A stretch of DNA of 64,000 nt from Paludibacteraceae bacterium (GTDB taxonomy: Bacteria > Bacteroidota > Bacteroidia > Bacteroidales > Paludibacteraceae), in the NCBI GenBank assembly GCA_017461505.1, contig JAFTXV010000007.1, positions 248,001 to 312,000 of the forward strand, in the 5' to 3' direction. How positions within the stretch are numbered: position 1 is the first letter of the stretch; each line of letters begins with the position of its first letter. The notes beneath the pieces are model-generated. The model was not told where the DNA came from. It did not search any database and saw nothing but the letters and a program-made list of their open reading frames with translations. Shown in pieces: positions 14,379 through 49,414 of this stretch. The translations under genes and the position numbers were made by a program.

Positions 14379-14462
14379 ACTATAAACGAACAAACACAAA
14401 CAGAGGATATGTCAAATTTGATATATCCTCTTCTTATATGCCAACCTCTCTCCAATTTCATC

Positions 14463-14566
14463 TGTACAAAATCCCCACAACTACCATATAATCAATCTTT
14501 TTTATCGCAAAATCATGTACATTCACTCAACATACTTGCTCACATCCAAGATTTTCACTACCTTTG
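14463..14566 (+). promoter_or_regulatory. Promoter and putative operator of the first TPR/HTH regulator
   Basis: The -7 box TACCTTTG is at 14559-14566 and TTG at 14536. TGTACA palindromes lie at 14463 and 14516, and ATCAAT at 14491. These three elements and the -33 stand at the same offsets as in the promoter of the next gene (16012-16115). This suggests that one regulator binds both, most simply the product of the 14595 gene. Confidence 0.75.
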
Positions 14567-14594
14567 CAAACGAAATCACCAAACACACTGCCTT

Positions 14595-16007
14595 ATGTCG
14601 CCAATCCGTCATCTCACCTTTATGCTCCTCTGCCTGTTTTTAACTTCTTGTGGCTACACTACCCGCTACCAAGAAGCGCAAACCACTATCGCCGTGGCAG
14701 ATAGTTTAGACCAACACGAGCACCTACTCTATCCCGACACCGCAGCACTTCAACAATCTATCCGCACGCTCAACAACCCTTTCGGCAAACTCTTTACACA
14801 CAACCAACTCGGCAAAGCGCACTACTACATCGGACGCCATCTCAGTCTTAACGCCCATATCACCCAAGCCGCAGCGCACTATATCGCTGCCGACCGCGCA
14901 CAGATAGATGATCCTATCTATCGCGGGCGTATCAACTCCTGCATAGCGCATATAGCCAAACAAAACGAGAGCGATAGCCTTGCTCTTATCTTCTTCCTTC
15001 GTGCCAACGATGCCTTCAAGGCTAGCGGCAAGGACTGGTACTACGCGCATACCCTGTTGGATGTCAGTGAGTTCCATACCTATCTCCACCACTTCGAAGA
15101 GGCAGACAGCATACTCCATCTCGCTGCCTCCTACAACATAGACGACTACTACCTCGCGCGCTTCTACGAGACCAAAGGCCTCTATTTCTACGAGCAACTC
15201 CAATATGATTCTGCCCTCCACCACTTCCACCACGCCTTAAACCTCTGGCAATACGAAGAAGACCGCCTCTATACATATAAGAAACTCATGCAAGTCTATC
15301 TCGACATGGGCGACCAAGCATCGGCTTTGCCTTACGCACAAATCATCGTGGAGCAGTCCGCTACGCCCAACGAGTTGGTTAATGCCTACTACTGCCTCAT
15401 GCAGGATGCCAAGGCCAACAACGATATTGAGCGACTGAGCCGTTATGCCCACGCACGCCAAGATGCCAACCGCCTGCTCAACGCACAAGTGGGCAAGTAT
15501 CACGGCGCACTCACCCTGCTCAGAGAGCATCTGGCAAATCCCCATCCCTACCGATGGGCGTGGATGACGCTCCTATGCCTTCTTGTGGCTTGCTTGCTAT
15601 TGGTCATCGCTATCGTGCTGCACCGCCGACACGCAGCCCGCCGCTTGCAAGTCGCTCATCATCAGATAGAAGACCTATCCATCAGTGCCCAATTGTCCGA
15701 CATCCGCGCCACCTATCCACGCCCTCGCAAACAATGGAACGACTACAACGAGCTAAAGAAAGACTTAGACCTCCAACTCCACGATTGGCTATCTCAGTTG
15801 GAGACCTACCAACTATCCAACCGCGAAAATGTCTTTTGTGCGTATATGCTCCTTTATCCTAATGCTTCATTGGAGGAACTGGCAGATTGGATGCACTACT
15901 CCGCCACAGGTGTCAGCACCTTCAAACGCCGCATCGCACAGAAGATAGGCATTCCCACCCGAGAACTGTATCATTTCCTACATGAGATGCTACAAAGCGA
16001 AAAATAG
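14595..16007 (+). CDS. Transmembrane TPR/HTH one-component regulator (cassette 1)
   Basis: I start this 470-residue protein at 14595, because the promoter at 14559 excludes the longer reading from 14409. Order of parts: signal or lipobox segment FMLLCLFLTSC (Cys19), periplasmic alpha-helical TPR region (about 25-310), one membrane helix near 320-345 (WMTLLCLLVACLLLVIAIVL), a basic coiled-coil, then a C-terminal LuxR-like helix-turn-helix (about 410-465; LEELADWMHYSATGVSTFKR). This is the Bacteroidetes layout of a periplasmic sensor joined to a cytoplasmic DNA-binding domain. A paralogue lies at 46718-48184 with the same order and many identical blocks. The downstream secreted protein gene shares its operator pattern. 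Ligand unknown. Confidence 0.85.
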   Translation: MSPIRHLTFMLLCLFLTSCGYTTRYQEAQTTIAVADSLDQHEHLLYPDTAALQQSIRTLNNPFGKLFTHNQLGKAHYYIGRHLSLNAHITQAAAHYIAADRAQIDDPIYRGRINSCIAHIAKQNESDSLALIFFLRANDAFKASGKDWYYAHTLLDVSEFHTYLHHFEEADSILHLAASYNIDDYYLARFYETKGLYFYEQLQYDSALHHFHHALNLWQYEEDRLYTYKKLMQVYLDMGDQASALPYAQIIVEQSATPNELVNAYYCLMQDAKANNDIERLSRYAHARQDANRLLNAQVGKYHGALTLLREHLANPHPYRWAWMTLLCLLVACLLLVIAIVLHRRHAARRLQVAHHQIEDLSISAQLSDIRATYPRPRKQWNDYNELKKDLDLQLHDWLSQLETYQLSNRENVFCAYMLLYPNASLEELADWMHYSATGVSTFKRRIAQKIGIPTRELYHFLHEMLQSEK

Positions 16008-16011
16008 AAAC

Positions 16012-16115
16012 TGTACATTTTTATTACAAATAATAGATTATCAATACAATACATTTTTATAGTCTGTACAAATGCCTCTGCCTATTGCAGATGTTACCAA
16101 ATTGTACTACCTTTG
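16012..16115 (+). promoter_or_regulatory. Promoter and putative operator of the large secreted protein gene
   Basis: TACCTTTG is at 16108-16115 and TTG at 16085. TGTACA lies at 16012 and 16065 and ATCAAT at 16040, exactly matching the offsets in the 14463-14566 promoter. The 12-mer TTATCAATACAA (16038-16049) also occurs at 48214-48225, upstream of the secreted gene of the second cassette. Confidence 0.78.
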
Positions 16116-16165: not shown

Positions 16166-19100
16166 ATGAAAACGATCAACTCCTTCCGCAGCAAACTTCT
16201 TGCTCTCACCCTCGCCCTCATGGCAAGTGTGTCAACCTTCGCGTACAAATCCCAGTGGTGCGACAAATGGAATGTCATGTGGTTTGACGGTTTGTTTTTT
16301 GATGAAACAGCAAGAACATCACAATATCGACTAGGAAAAGATACTATCATCGGTGATTATACATATAGCAAATTTACCTCAAGAACTTCCGTACGCTTCA
16401 CCGACGATAGGAAAGTATATGTCTATTATGAAGGCTTTGATGACAACGACCCATACACTCAAGATTTACCAACAGGCGAGTATTTAGCATACGACTTCTC
16501 TGCACAAGTAGGCGACACATTGGAAGTATTCTCTGGGGTTCATTCATATAGTAAGTACAAATGTCTTGTGCGTGAAGTACAAACAGATCCTGAAACCAAG
16601 CTTCGTACCATAACATTATTCCAACTTTTACTTGAAGATACAGATGGAGATGGCGTTGAAGAGGAATATGGCCTTGGAGGAATGACATGGATAGAAGGCG
16701 TTGGCTCACCCAATGGATTTTTAATTAATACTACTCTGCCTGGCGGAGGTCTTTTTACGCTCCTCTGCGCCTATAAAGATGATGAATTGAAATATACAGG
16801 TTCATTTTATGAGCGTTTTGGTTGCAAATACAACGCAGGAGTAGTCAGCGACGACCTTTTCCCAACATTATCTGGATTGCAACGAACAATTTGCCGTGAA
16901 TATTGCGAACAAGCCGACAATAAAACCCGAATTGAACAATATACCAACCTAACAACAAGAACTGAAACTGGTGCCCCATACATATATTGTTCGCCATTTT
17001 TGCTGCGTGAAAAAGATAATAAGATATTGATTTATAGTCGTTCCTTGGATAAAGACCTTGTATTATATGACTTTAATTTGGAAGTAGGAGATTCATTGCC
17101 AATGCTATATATTGACTTTTTTGCCAAAGATGATTGGATTGCAGATCGTGATATGGAGATATGGTATGTAGTAGATTACCACAAAGATTTAGAGGGTAAT
17201 TTACTACCTGCAGACACACTTATAGTTACAGATGTTTCCGCTATCACCCTATTGGACGGCAAAGAATACAAGAAATGGACCTTTAACAACGGAATGGAGT
17301 ATGTAGAAGGCATAGGTAGTTTTGGTAATAGACAATGGTCAGGCGATTTCTTCCAATTGATAGGTAATATGGGCATTCCTGTTAGTTTGCATGGCGAACA
17401 CCTTGTCTGCGTAAGCAAAAACAATAAACTCCTCTACCAGATGGACGATGCAGAAATGGAACGCCTTGGCGCAGAGTGCCTATGCGAAGTAGAAACTTCC
17501 TACAAAGACCAATGGTGCAACCAATGGAATATCCTTGCACATGGCTATTTAGGTCCGCAAGACCCGTTGGTAGCGGCGCGTACGAGCATATTTTGGTTGA
17601 GTAATAATACTGTCAACAGAAATGGTCAAGAGTATATCCCTCTTATGTGCTCATCCAGTAAACCTGATGTAGAATCAACTAATCTCATTGGTGAATTACG
17701 CTTTACAAAAGACAAGCAAGTGTATTTCTATTATGACAACACCGAATACCTGCTCTATGATTTTGATGTACAAGTTGGTGATACATTGGATATTTTTGGA
17801 GGTATTGAACTCTATAGTTATAGTTTTGTTGAGCAAAAGACTTACCCACATGTGATAACTAAAATAGACACGTTGGATGATGGCAGATTGCAAATCACAT
17901 CAGATGCTATAGTTATATTCGAAGATGGCGAGGTCGGGACTTTTGAGGAAAAGCAGCAACAAATATGGATAGAAGGATTAGGATCAATCAATGGTATAGT
18001 TCATACTGGTATCAATCCAGGAATCGCTGGAAATCCTGCTATTGTCATGCTTTGCGCATATCGCGATGATGAGTGTGTTTATAAAACAGATTCTAATGAT
18101 CCATACTGGATTGATTATACGCAACTTGGTTGTGTGTACAACGAAGGTGACTTTATTGAGGGTGCATTCCCTATACTGTCTGGCTTGCAGCGAACAGTTT
18201 GCAATGAGTATTGTGGAGAAACCGAGGATGATAATTCTGCGAATAACACATACAAACAAACATTCGATAGCATATTCTTTGAGAATGACAAACCATATAT
18301 CCTTTGCAATGATTATCTCCTGCGCGAAGAAGATAATAAGATATTGATATATAGCCAACTACTTAATAAAGACCTTGTGTTATATGACTTCACGTTGGAA
18401 GTTGGCGACTCTTTGCCTGCGCTCTATTATGAGTTGCGTGCACACAACGCCATGCAGCAGTGGCTATACAATGGAGATATAGTGGACTATAATAAAGACG
18501 ACGAAGGAACAATATTGCCCGCTGAGACTTTTGTTGTTACAGATATTTCAACAATCACATTGCTCGACGGTAAAGAGTATAAGAAATGGACATTCGACAA
18601 TGGTATGGAGTATGTAGAGGGTATTGGCATGTATGGCGGTCATCGCAATGGTAACTTCTTCGGATTGATTCAGGAAATTGTTGTTCCATGTCACACGGGC
18701 ACACACCTCGTCTGCGTAAGCAAAAACAACCAACTCCTCTACCAAATGGACGATGCCGAAATGGAACGCCTTGGCGCAGAGTGCCTATGCGATTATGACC
18801 GTGGACCACGCAAGGACAATGCTAAAGACGGTCAGATTGGTGGCAGACCAACCCCTACACAATGGAATCAGTTAGAAGTTGTGCTTCGCCAAATGGATAA
18901 CAACCACACTATCCTGCAAGCAGAGACTTTCAGCTACACATTGGAAGACATCTCGCAACAGGTGAACAACAAAACCTATTTCCAACTCGCACGCCAATCC
19001 ACCAAAGATACTGCCACAACCAAGTCCGTAGTAGGTGCACTGCATTTCGGCAAAGATGAAGACAACCGTGTGTACTTCCTCCGCGATGGAGTAGAATATG

Positions 19101-19615
19101 TGCTCTACGACTTCACCGCCGAAATAGGCGACACAGTGGAAATCTTTGCAGGTATCAACAACTACCCTCAAGAAACCACCTACACTCATGTGGTGGTTGA
19201 TAAAGACACCACTGAAGATGGAGCTTGCAGAATGTTCCTGGAGGTAGTCTTCCCCGATGAGACCAATGCTACTGCCGAAAACGCAGAAAAAGTCTGGTTA
19301 GCAGGTCTCGGCTCTGTGGATGGCATTGTGCATAACGCTGCCAAACGAACCAGCAACGCTCACGCTGCACCAAGCAGAAGTGCTAGCAGCGAAACAGAAA
19401 GTTCAGTCATGCTCTGTGCTTGGCGCGAAGATAGTTGCCTCTACATGACCAATCATCCCGACTACGATGCCTTCGGTTGTGTCTATAACCAAGACCTTAC
19501 AGCGGTAGAGAGTCCTACTTCCTCATCTTCTTATCAGAAGGTTCTACGTGGAGGTCAACTGCTAATTATGCATAATGGAAAGACATATACCGTCATGGGA
19601 ATTGAAATGAAGTAA
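16166..19615 (+). CDS. Large secreted protein with two and a half internal repeats
   Basis: This 1149-residue protein has a signal peptide (LLALTLALMASVSTFA) and then three copies of a two-part unit starting near residues 27, 445 and 895; the third copy has only the first part. Part A contains YLLYDFxxQVGDTLxxF and a WIEGLGSxxG motif; part B contains LSGLQRTVCNEYC, DNKILIYSQ and LLYQMDDAEMERLGAECLC. Copies 1 and 2 are nearly identical in DNA around 17430-17490 and 18735-18795, so a duplication is recent or maintained. The C-terminus ends KVLRGGQLLIMHNGKTYTVM, a tail resembling those of other secreted Bacteroidales proteins. Function unknown; probably surface-exposed. It lies directly downstream of the regulator gene. 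Confidence 0.85.
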   Translation: MKTINSFRSKLLALTLALMASVSTFAYKSQWCDKWNVMWFDGLFFDETARTSQYRLGKDTIIGDYTYSKFTSRTSVRFTDDRKVYVYYEGFDDNDPYTQDLPTGEYLAYDFSAQVGDTLEVFSGVHSYSKYKCLVREVQTDPETKLRTITLFQLLLEDTDGDGVEEEYGLGGMTWIEGVGSPNGFLINTTLPGGGLFTLLCAYKDDELKYTGSFYERFGCKYNAGVVSDDLFPTLSGLQRTICREYCEQADNKTRIEQYTNLTTRTETGAPYIYCSPFLLREKDNKILIYSRSLDKDLVLYDFNLEVGDSLPMLYIDFFAKDDWIADRDMEIWYVVDYHKDLEGNLLPADTLIVTDVSAITLLDGKEYKKWTFNNGMEYVEGIGSFGNRQWSGDFFQLIGNMGIPVSLHGEHLVCVSKNNKLLYQMDDAEMERLGAECLCEVETSYKDQWCNQWNILAHGYLGPQDPLVAARTSIFWLSNNTVNRNGQEYIPLMCSSSKPDVESTNLIGELRFTKDKQVYFYYDNTEYLLYDFDVQVGDTLDIFGGIELYSYSFVEQKTYPHVITKIDTLDDGRLQITSDAIVIFEDGEVGTFEEKQQQIWIEGLGSINGIVHTGINPGIAGNPAIVMLCAYRDDECVYKTDSNDPYWIDYTQLGCVYNEGDFIEGAFPILSGLQRTVCNEYCGETEDDNSANNTYKQTFDSIFFENDKPYILCNDYLLREEDNKILIYSQLLNKDLVLYDFTLEVGDSLPALYYELRAHNAMQQWLYNGDIVDYNKDDEGTILPAETFVVTDISTITLLDGKEYKKWTFDNGMEYVEGIGMYGGHRNGNFFGLIQEIVVPCHTGTHLVCVSKNNQLLYQMDDAEMERLGAECLCDYDRGPRKDNAKDGQIGGRPTPTQWNQLEVVLRQMDNNHTILQAETFSYTLEDISQQVNNKTYFQLARQSTKDTATTKSVVGALHFGKDEDNRVYFLRDGVEYVLYDFTAEIGDTVEIFAGINNYPQETTYTHVVVDKDTTEDGACRMFLEVVFPDETNATAENAEKVWLAGLGSVDGIVHNAAKRTSNAHAAPSRSASSETESSVMLCAWREDSCLYMTNHPDYDAFGCVYNQDLTAVESPTSSSSYQKVLRGGQLLIMHNGKTYTVMGIEMK

Positions 19616-46717: not shown

Positions 46718-48184
46718 ATGAGAAAAGCTGTAGCATATCTATTCCGTCAGACATACAGAGTAATCTGTGTGTTAGGATGTGTGTTTATATTAACCTCTTG
46801 TGGTTGGCACGAAGCAAAAGAGGTCATTGCCACAGCAGATAGCTTAGACCAAACGGAGCATCTCATCTATGATGATACCGCAGCCTTGGGCAAATCTATC
46901 CGCTGCTTGGACAATCCGTTCGGCAGAGTATTGATGAGCAATACCCTCGGCAAAGCATATTACTACATGGGTCGGAATTTCAGTTTCTCTGATCGAATCG
47001 CAGAAGCAGCAGAGTGTTACATCGAAGCAGATCGTTTGCAGATTAACGATCCCATTTATCGTGGACGCGTCAACTCATGTATGGGGTATATCTGTGCACA
47101 AAATAACAATGATAGTTTGGCATTGATATTTTACGAGCGAGCTAACAAAGCGTTTAAGAAAAGTGCAAATGAATGGTACTATGCACAAAATTTATTAAAT
47201 ATCGGTCGTTGCTATTTAGAACAGCACTTATTTTATCAAGCTGATAGTATATTACACATTGCTAAAAACTACCAATTGGATAGCACCTATACCGCTCGTC
47301 GTATTAAAACAACAGGACTTAACTTTTATGAACAACAAAAATACGATTCGGCATTAGTGTATTTTAAGCAAGAAGTAGATTATTGGCAGAGTGAGAAAGA
47401 CCGATGTTTCAGTTACCTAAAAATAATGCAAGTAAGCATGGATATTCGAGATTTAGCACAGGCAGTATCGTACGCTCAACGCATTATTGAACACTCCAAC
47501 AATCCTAATCATTTAGTCAATGCATATTATTGTTTAATACAAGATGCTGAAGAAAAGCATGATACACAACACCTGAGTTTATATTCACATGCTCGCAATG
47601 ATGCACAGCGATTATTACGTGATATCTCTAATAAATATGCAAATGCACTTCACTTATTAGAAGATTATTTGAATAATCCTCATCCTATGCGCTGGATAAG
47701 AATTACTTTATTTTTGAGTATAATTCTATGCGCAATCTTAGCAATTAGTATTGCTGTATATCGCAAATTAACAACTGCAAAGATTCATCTATCAACTACG
47801 CAAATCAACAGTTTATCTTTACAAATAAAGAAACACGAAGAAGAACTCAACAAGCAACTTGAGATGCACCTATATGACAAGCGTTTGGATAAACTTCGCA
47901 GAAAATATCCAAAGCCTCTTAATAAGTGGAACGACTATAGTCAACTAAAACAAGATATTAATCCTTATCTACATAATTGGTTGGAGGCCTTGGAAAAGCT
48001 TGATTTAACCAATCGAGAAAATGTGTTTTGCACATTAAGTTTCATTTACCCACACCTACCTATTGATGACTTGGCTAATTATATGTGCATTACCAAAGAT
48101 GCATTTATGGTTCGCAAGGCTCGTGTTGTTAAAAAATTAGGAATAACCTCTACACAATTTGTCGAATTTTTGCAAAGTCTATAA
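46718..48184 (+). CDS. Transmembrane TPR/HTH one-component regulator (cassette 2)
   Basis: This 488-residue protein is a paralogue of the 14595 gene product: both share ATADSLDQ, DTAAL, DNPFG and LGKAYYYMGR-like blocks, NYLVNAYYCL-like steps and the TNRENVFC start of the C-terminal domain. Parts in order: membrane-targeting start with Cys28 (VFILTSC), periplasmic TPR-like helices, one membrane helix near 325-350, a coiled-coil, then an HTH (about 430-485; IDDLANYMCITKDAFMVRKA). I start it at 46718 because the promoter ends at 46710; a start at 46697 would lie inside the promoter. The secreted S41-like gene follows behind its own promoter. Ligand and regulon unknown. Confidence 0.85.
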   Translation: MRKAVAYLFRQTYRVICVLGCVFILTSCGWHEAKEVIATADSLDQTEHLIYDDTAALGKSIRCLDNPFGRVLMSNTLGKAYYYMGRNFSFSDRIAEAAECYIEADRLQINDPIYRGRVNSCMGYICAQNNNDSLALIFYERANKAFKKSANEWYYAQNLLNIGRCYLEQHLFYQADSILHIAKNYQLDSTYTARRIKTTGLNFYEQQKYDSALVYFKQEVDYWQSEKDRCFSYLKIMQVSMDIRDLAQAVSYAQRIIEHSNNPNHLVNAYYCLIQDAEEKHDTQHLSLYSHARNDAQRLLRDISNKYANALHLLEDYLNNPHPMRWIRITLFLSIILCAILAISIAVYRKLTTAKIHLSTTQINSLSLQIKKHEEELNKQLEMHLYDKRLDKLRRKYPKPLNKWNDYSQLKQDINPYLHNWLEALEKLDLTNRENVFCTLSFIYPHLPIDDLANYMCITKDAFMVRKARVVKKLGITSTQFVEFLQSL

Positions 48185-48210
48185 AATTGCAAAAAAACGA
48201 GCATCTTCTA

Positions 48211-48320
48211 ACCTTATCAATACAACATCGTAACATATTGATAATCAGATAAATCCCCCCCCTAAAACCTTATCAATTCCTTATTCTCCTTGCACACTTC
48301 ATAGGATTGTTGTAATTTTG
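48211..48320 (+). promoter_or_regulatory. Promoter and putative operator of the S41-like lipoprotein gene
   Basis: TAATTTTG at 48313-48320 and TTGC at 48290. The 11-mer ACCTTATCAAT occurs at 48211 and 48267, with an inverted TATTGATAA at 48236 that pairs with TTATCAATA at 48214. ATCAAT is also the core shared by the two operator regions of cassette 1, so it is a candidate recognition site for this regulator family. Confidence 0.72.
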
Positions 48321-48355: not shown

Positions 48356-49414
48356 ATGAAACGAATATTATTTTCCCTAACCATTGTGCTTTTATTAGCA
48401 TCCTGTACTCAACCTGAAATTCCAACTATTACCCACGAGAATGAATATGCACAGTGTTTTGCTGACATGTGGGATATATTAGATGCCTACCACTCCTATT
48501 TAGAAGAATTAGGTATCAATAGAAATGACATATACAAACGCTATCTCTCAGCCGCTGCAGAAGTCGCAACTCCCACACAGTTCACAAACCTCCTGAATGC
48601 TTTTGTACAAGAGATAGGAGACCCCAATATTATCATTGACTACAACCATCAGTTCATACAATGTCCTACCAAGGTTAAAGATTACCCTGCTTTCAATTTG
48701 GTAAGCGGAGATCTATATACTGGAAAATTGTGGAGTGAAGATGGTGCATATACATATCCTTTCTATACTAAGTCAGTATCTCGTACACTGTCTAGTGATT
48801 CACGTATCAACTATCAATTACTATTGTTCGGAGACTATACATGGAAATCCCCTACTCAAGCACAAAAGGACTCTCTACACACCTATTTATCTTCATTATC
48901 CAATTGTGCTACCGATGGATTAGTATTGGATTTACGTGGTTCATACTATATCGATTTCACATACATTAGGGATATTCTACCTTATTTCTACGAGAAAGGC
49001 ACTCATACTATATGTGAATACCAAACATCACCTACTGCAGAAATGGAAACTTACACCATCGAGGGAAATGGGATTTTAGCCAATCTACCGATATCCATCA
49101 TTGTAAACGAAAGGACAATAGGCGAATGGGCATTATTTGCTCGAATATTACAAGACAGAGATAATGTGGCTATCATCAGTCGTTCTAATGGAGGTGCAGG
49201 TTGCATGCACGGACGTTTTGGTTTCCCTTTGGGCGTCGAACTATGCTGTCCCATGTACCGCACTTTCGTTTCACAAACAGCATGCTACAGTCCTTTCAAA
49301 CCAGAGGTATTTGTAGAATGGGAAGGCACTGAAAGTGAGCATGGTAATTTGGGATATACAGATAATATTGATTATTGTATAGCCGCTGCCTTGGATTTTA
49401 TTGACTCATTGTAA
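48356..49414 (+). CDS. S41-peptidase-like lipoprotein lacking the catalytic serine
   Basis: This 352-residue protein has a lipobox (VLLLASC, Cys17). The C-terminal two thirds resemble tail-specific proteases of family S41: GLVLDLRGSYYIDFTYIRDI, then a strand and turn SIIVNERTIGEWALFARIL and a glycine-rich SRSNGGAG. In active S41 enzymes the stretch after the conserved Asn carries the nucleophile in a T/S-x-S-A-x-E pattern; here residues 251-257 read NERTIGE, with Gly256 in that place. So it may be a binding protein rather than a protease. No PDZ domain is seen. It follows the cassette 2 regulator and has its own promoter. Confidence 0.75.
   Translation: MKRILFSLTIVLLLASCTQPEIPTITHENEYAQCFADMWDILDAYHSYLEELGINRNDIYKRYLSAAAEVATPTQFTNLLNAFVQEIGDPNIIIDYNHQFIQCPTKVKDYPAFNLVSGDLYTGKLWSEDGAYTYPFYTKSVSRTLSSDSRINYQLLLFGDYTWKSPTQAQKDSLHTYLSSLSNCATDGLVLDLRGSYYIDFTYIRDILPYFYEKGTHTICEYQTSPTAEMETYTIEGNGILANLPISIIVNERTIGEWALFARILQDRDNVAIISRSNGGAGCMHGRFGFPLGVELCCPMYRTFVSQTACYSPFKPEVFVEWEGTESEHGNLGYTDNIDYCIAAALDFIDSL

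Follow-up and report, generated by a model that had tools for sequence, protein, structure and literature searches.

Results

Genes and predicted products of the locus

The window, by which we mean the whole 64,000-nucleotide stretch of DNA analysed here, carries on its forward strand a regulator gene (positions 14595-16007, 470 aa) and, adjoining it, a target gene (16166-19615, forward strand, 1149 aa) whose product is, judged by eye, probably a secreted repeat protein. The regulator was defined from the ORF list, an AlphaFold2 model, hydropathy and a model of its HTH segment; an in-frame ATG at 14409, upstream of the promoter, is not likely to be its start. Its predicted layout comprises an N-terminal signal with lipobox (SCG), TPR helices at residues ~48-254, one transmembrane helix at ~320-345 and a LuxR/GerE-like HTH at ~379-467. 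The AlphaFold2 model of the regulator has a pLDDT of 85 and that of the HTH segment a pLDDT of 89. The best solved-structure matches to the regulator model are TPR proteins, including LGN and the Rap/NprR sensors. For the HTH segment, the best profile and fold matches were EvgA, DosR and GerE, all weak: the profile match to EvgA had an E-value of 0.001, and Foldseek gave a probability of 1.00 to EvgA and DosR, yet E-values of 0.19 and above. Pfam GerE scored 13.2 bits on the regulator, below the gathering score of 23.5, and matched 7 of 17 HTH segments of the family at E up to 1. Response regulators of the LuxR/GerE type (EvgA, DosR, GerE) also have a C-terminal HTH; the regulator differs from these in having no visible receiver domain and in its predicted membrane anchor. 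These predicted features are consistent with a membrane protein whose periplasmic sensor is joined to a cytoplasmic C-terminal HTH.

The target had no Pfam or NCBIfam match over cut-off. By eye, a C-terminal motif resembling a sorting tail, GQLxIxxxGKTYxxxG, recurs in this protein and in several large proteins in L046-L054.

Paired sites in the two promoters

All promoter features described here lie on the forward strand, with distances counted from the -7 box. The regulator gene is preceded by a -7 box TACCTTTG at 14559-14566, and the target gene by the same box at 16108-16115. TGTACA stands at -96 (A1, 14463-14468 and 16012-16017) and at -43 (A2, 14516-14521 and 16065-16070) in both promoters, exactly as an earlier note on this DNA had reported. 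The two further shared words of that note, ATCAAT 28 bases (-68) and TTG 73 bases (-23) after the start of the first TGTACA, are likewise exact in both. Their assignment to the regulator's operator fared less well. The TTG (14536-14538 and 16085-16087) belongs to the -33 promoter element, columns -23 to -21 being among the most conserved in the family logo; we take TTG at -23 to be the general Bacteroidota -33 promoter element. ATCAAT (14491 and 16040) falls within a central element, C, at 14490-14502 (AATCAATCTTTTT) and 16039-16051 (TATCAATACAATA), each of which fits the IHF consensus with one mismatch. It is probably a rather weak, degenerate copy of an element found family-wide between the paired sites (below), and not a site bound by the regulator.

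By count alone, TGTACA shows no clear enrichment in the window: it occurs 27 times where 20.6 would be expected, and 8 of 100 shuffles give that number or more. Its placement is unusual: when 97 TAnnTTTG boxes on both strands of the window were compared over the stretch from -115 to -36, three 6-mers were common at equal offsets in only 2 of 4656 pairs of boxes, one being the adjacent regulator/target pair. A search of the organism's own genome (1.74 Mb, ~82% complete) for the spaced TGTACA pattern returned only these two promoters, and the reversed control returned none. The two promoters flank one gene, as chance resemblance or recent duplication of one promoter might produce, and that explanation is negligible: they are identical at only 50 of 115 positions from -115 to -1, the sites are kept across orthologues while much else diverges, and the repeat forms a peak throughout the family. 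The low identity also bears out the statement that the sequence between the sites is not conserved as far as the two window promoters are concerned; among orthologues the spacer is partly conserved.

Conservation among orthologues

Among 61 same-genus genomes, the TGTACA pair pattern occurs in 6. The same 6 encode a close orthologue of the regulator, at 76-100% identity, and the remaining 55 have neither. In the promoter of the regulator's own gene, both TGTACA sites are exact at -96/-43 in G039, G058, G054 and G025, and stand at -95/-42 in G014, where the second is AGTACA; A1 is thus at -96 in 4 of 5 orthologous promoters. We also asked whether close relatives that keep both genes lose the pattern before the target: G058 and G054 have the two sites unchanged, and one base of the second is changed (AGTACA at -43) in G039 and G025. 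In G058 and G054 a gene that is methyltransferase-like by eye lies between regulator and target, its own promoter carrying TGTACA at -97 and AGTACA at -43. The neighbouring genes differ in G014, where the first site is degenerate and AGTACA is kept at -43, at the promoter of a methyltransferase-like gene. The exact TGTACA pair of G014, at -97/-43 (L058 3454-3608), precedes an SGNH-type gene (by eye) that is unlinked to the regulator and is, on this sequence match, its likely trans target.

A further pair at -97/-43 in G058 precedes a gene for a short TM-HTH protein. At all five such loci examined, the short gene's own promoter has GTGTACA at ~-97, GTGTACA or GTGTGCA at ~-43, and CTGATTTTCA between them. 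The short protein, of ~190 aa and with no TPR, is encoded at L061 3462-4037 (flipped orientation), with orthologues in L057, L059, L060 and L064.

The paralogous locus and the family in the genome

A paralogous regulator with 49% identity is encoded in the same window at 46718-48184 on the forward strand. The promoter of its target, an S41-peptidase-like lipoprotein (48356-49414, forward strand), has the same plan with another word: A1 (AACCTTATCAAT, 48210-48221), C (TTGATAATCAG, 48238-48248), A2 (again AACCTTATCAAT, 48266-48277, 56 bp past A1) and a -7 box (TAATTTTG, 48313-48320), all on the forward strand. Operator words contrast between paralogues, as in TGTACA against CTTATCAAT. In several paralogous target promoters, at 48255-48262 of the window and also in L053, L114 and L117, the C element is separated from the second operator copy by a run of 7-10 cytosines; slippage in it would alter the operator spacing, making this a possible phase-variable promoter.

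The own genome contains five regulators of the family: two full-length ones in the window, two more elsewhere, and a short TM-HTH protein that lacks TPR. Each of the five adjoins a promoter in which a central element stands between two sites that match or nearly match, in keeping with the prediction that the adjacent regulator is the binder. The family is expanded in one Paludibacteraceae genus, and all 70 relatives with titles come from Paludibacteraceae, Bacteroidales or Candidatus Colicola MAGs, many of them from ruminants.

A direct repeat across the family

Regulators collected from the genus and from genome contigs gave a set of 131 non-redundant proteins. Of these, 89 were testable, having a TAnnTTTG box downstream of the stop with 125 bp upstream of it; frames running off a contig and promoters more than 70% identical (including L006/L063, a near copy of L005/L062) were removed at this step. 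A position-constrained score detected a direct repeat of 8-14 bp, with a lag of 52-58 bp and copies at about -97/-41, for 51 of the 89; twenty first-order Markov sets gave 0-3, and other windows of eight lags gave 0-4. Of 116 promoters, those with 9 or more of 10 positions matching numbered 4, 16, 16 and 23 at lags of 54, 55, 56 and 57, and 0-3 at other lags between 15 and 84. In most cases the first copy begins between -103 and -92. For 41 of the 51 repeat-bearing regulators, mutual identity is below 60%. The repeated word varies with the regulator, examples being AAATTCCCAC, AAATATCCACA, TGTAGACC, AATTGCCCAT, AAACTACAT, CTTATCAA and GTTAACA. A few of the 51 repeats, such as the A-rich one of L101, may be spurious. 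The strict test was failed by 38 of the 89, among them the window's own regulator, whose conserved word, at 6 bp, is too short for it.

Promoters of 237 other genes gave 20 promoter-lag matches at lags of 53-58. By inspection, at least 8 of these are promoters of family regulators or carry the TGTACA pair (L033, L041, L055, L070, L077, L110, L132, L134), so that the control set still contained some regulator promoters and the comparison is conservative; most of the remaining matches look low in complexity.

Autoregulation was rejected as a general rule. The repeat was found in only 2 of 42 own promoters (L070, L077) and, in a larger set, in 1, 2 and 1 of 78 own promoters at lags of 54, 55 and 56, by tests that are blind to 6-bp words such as TGTACA. 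In the upstream regions of L070, L077 and L033, some regulators of ~400 aa have an upstream promoter preceded by repeats of the TTTTCAAA type at a spacing of 55-56 bp.

Targets were extracted for 47 of the 51 promoters as the first ATG frame, 80 codons or longer, lying no more than 260 bases from the -7 box, a rule that can skip a shorter first gene (as in L005). DUF3244 matched 26 of the 47, the others being S41 or C25 peptidases or having nothing listed; no SusC/SusD family match was found among the 47 at E up to 0.01. The TPR-HTH regulators are repeatedly paired with a small DUF3244-type protein, a pairing for which BT_3441 next to BT_3442 (PMC2954219) may be a further case. The regulator might sense its partner as a ligand or be linked to it by feedback; the Rap/NprR proteins among the TPR fold matches are peptide sensors.

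Correlation between the word and the HTH

Across 50 of the 51 regulators (one with a gapped HTH was left out), similarity between words correlated with identity between HTH segments (r = 0.56; none of 2000 permutations reached this value). In partial Mantel tests, the correlation of word with HTH was 0.50 when sensor identity was controlled (0/2000), and that of word with sensor given HTH was 0.03 (509/2000). The recognition helix, taken from the HTH model, contains three of the four HTH columns that best separate words, including those ranked first and second. The word therefore tracks the HTH and not the sensor, as predicted if the adjacent regulator reads it. No other evidence here speaks as strongly for that regulator as the binder of the repeats.

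The alternative that an unlinked transcription factor binds the TGTACA pair, and the adjacent membrane protein does not, draws on TGTACA being a short palindrome. It is highly improbable: all six genomes that have a close orthologue carry the pair, the 55 lacking one do not, and the A words follow the neighbouring HTH, above all its recognition-helix columns. The central proposal of the earlier note, that one protein, the adjacent regulator, binds both promoters, is supported by this co-occurrence as the best reading of the sequences, and extends to the family: membrane-spanning regulators each appear to recognise their own short word, placed twice before the gene that they control.

The central element

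Between the repeat copies lies a shared near-palindrome, CTGATAATCAGC-N3-TTA, which fits the IHF consensus. De novo motif search in the 51 spacers yielded CTGATAATCAGCANTTTA with a score of 693, against 303-317 in shuffled spacers; this motif contains the IHF consensus WATCARNNNNTTR. C is positioned at -67 to -69 in 41 promoters; the other 10, which belong to the subfamily of the window's paralogues, have it at -72 to -77. In the TGTACA group C is weak, with 1-3 mismatches to the IHF consensus. With the consensus given as WATCARxxxxTTR (PMC3897727), exact matches on either strand were found in 21 of the 51 spacers, against a mean of 0.42 in shuffles. On the forward strand, exact matches were found in 10 of 51 spacers and 4 of 237 control promoters, and matches with at most one mismatch in 31 of 51 and 21 of 237.

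A search of the own genome for C together with a promoter gave four matches, against one in the reversed control; three are the target promoters of the three full-length paralogues and the fourth lies inside an open frame. This search and the 237 other promoters rule out C as a general upstream element of the genus. Regulator-specific inverted arms around C were also rejected as a rule, the observed scores being equal to those of a chimera control. A long inverted repeat surrounds C in L054 4485-4674 and L055 4660-4858 (flipped orientation), with CTTGCAATCGC...GCGATTGCAAG in L055.

Five HU/IHF-family matches are present in the own genome. Four of these were scanned, and three scored best against IHF models, none over any cut-off. 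C is nearly palindromic, which classical IHF sites are not known to be.

C stays constant while the recognition helices and A vary, and it should therefore have a second binder of its own. The competing view is that the regulator binds A1 and A2 and also contacts C, through a conserved part or a second dimer, and that no IHF/HU-type bender takes part. This would explain why C beside a promoter is, in the own genome, nearly confined to family promoters (three of the four matches) and keeps a fixed place there; it would also account for the palindromic TGATWATCA, as expected of a dimer site. We regard it as doubtful, though deserving some weight, since C does not vary with the recognition helices and A, its match reaches the separate TTR part of the IHF consensus, and the model shows no apparent second DNA-binding domain.

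Discussion

From the A-C-A architecture, its positions, its breadth and the tracking of the HTH by A, all of which appear in the sequences themselves, we infer an arrangement in terms of topology, binding, activation rather than repression, a C-binding protein and a loop. The preferred reading, to which we assign a probability of about three in four, is that A-C-A is the operator pair of a membrane-spanning one-component activator, with the HTH on both copies of A and an IHF/HU-type bend at C. A periplasmic TPR sensor would be joined by the single transmembrane helix to a cytoplasmic LuxR-like HTH. This HTH would occupy two in-phase direct repeats of its word A, spaced by some five helix turns, with the proximal copy adjoining the -33 element and the distal one at about -97. 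Roughly midway, C would be bound by an IHF/HU-type protein, and the resulting bend would let one membrane-anchored regulator dimer hold both copies of A and contact RNA polymerase. Each regulator would control mainly its adjoining gene, and that of the window also its own promoter. A difficulty for such a loop is that direct repeats across a sharp bend meet a symmetric dimer in opposite senses, so that the geometry is not obvious.

The same sites could serve repression, with A2 by the -33 element blocking polymerase and a loop of A1, C and A2 strengthening the block. A2 does adjoin the -33 element, and repression by looping between spaced operators is well known. We nevertheless find a repressor unlikely: the near-fixed distance from A2 to the -7 box would fit class II activation, and SusR, the characterised regulator closest in kind, is described as an activator (PMC3878776).

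No published description of A-C-A operators was found in the main texts of the open literature searched; the nearest found in print are the operators predicted for SusR-like regulators of Bacteroides, direct repeats 67 or 77 bp apart whose spacer is called non-conserved (PMC3878776, Ravcheev et al. 2013). As that source describes them, SusR-like proteins are membrane regulators with a periplasmic sensor and a C-terminal HTH, the layout predicted here, and have predicted direct-repeat operators with unusually long spacing whose motif similarity follows regulator similarity. The present operators differ from that description in their spacing, 53 bp in the window and 52-58 bp in the family, and in having a conserved IHF-like centre. 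The SusR-like targets reported there are glycan-use genes, whereas those here are DUF3244-type or other, probably secreted, proteins and not SusC/SusD or glycan-use proteins. We therefore file the window's regulator as a variant of the SusR-like kind and not as a SusR member, on the basis of spacing and target features. What is new lies in a spacing of five turns, a central element that is conserved, a correlation with the recognition helix that spans many paralogues, and cassettes of the DUF3244 type.

An IHF consensus near activator sites and a promoter also occurs at the D. vulgaris orp locus (PMC3897727). There, as described, the functional IHF site lies between the enhancer sites and a sigma-54 promoter; the putative IHF site here lies between two copies of one operator, at Bacteroidota promoters.

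A further comparison is with the BT3442 family (NF053779), a TPR protein heading a Bacteroides gene cluster in which BT_3441 adjoins BT_3442 (PMC2954219). Where it discusses BT_3442, that source treats it as a possible protein-interaction partner and not as a regulator. Members resemble the present regulators in combining TPR with a C-terminal HTH-like region. The window's regulator had no match to the family model at E up to 1, and its paralogue matched weakly, at 41.1 bits against a curated NCBIfam cut-off of 940. Eight BT3442-type loci from other Bacteroidales were examined. In L180 and L185 (one genome, both over the family cut-off) and L181 (another genome, below it), the gene is followed by a 12/12 direct repeat around CTGATTATCAR or TTGATAATCAA, at a lag of 44-45 bp as against 52-58 bp here. 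L183 (11/12, lag 66) and L187 (11/12, lag 76) have repeats with no clear C, in L186 a C-like word accompanies a 10/12 repeat (lag 73), and nothing clear was seen downstream in L182 or in L184, whose sequence stops 110 bases past the gene. Most TPR-HTH loci at greater distance show no A-C-A. In L195, TTGATAATCAG is flanked by a 10/12 repeat with a lag of 63, and L204 has a central-type word with no flanking repeat; neither was counted.

These comparisons raise a wider proposal, which we make tentatively and hold to be somewhat less probable than its opposite: that a swappable, regulator-specific word, placed twice around a universal IHF/HU-type bend site, is a general architecture of Bacteroidales membrane one-component activators. 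If so, the spacing of the words would be a near-integral number of helix turns, ~4 in BT3442-type loci, 5 here and 6-7 in the printed SusR-like motifs. A membrane-tethered dimer would close a short DNA loop, and rewiring would need only a change of recognition helix and word.

The results provide predicted binding words for about fifty uncharacterised membrane regulators, and with them a natural data set relating recognition helix to operator that can be tested by helix swaps. They suggest a role in transcription for the TPR protein BT_3442 and its relatives, as regulators of the adjoining cluster. The bend site may also explain, in structural terms, why the operators predicted for SusR-like regulators of gut Bacteroides are spaced so puzzlingly far apart.
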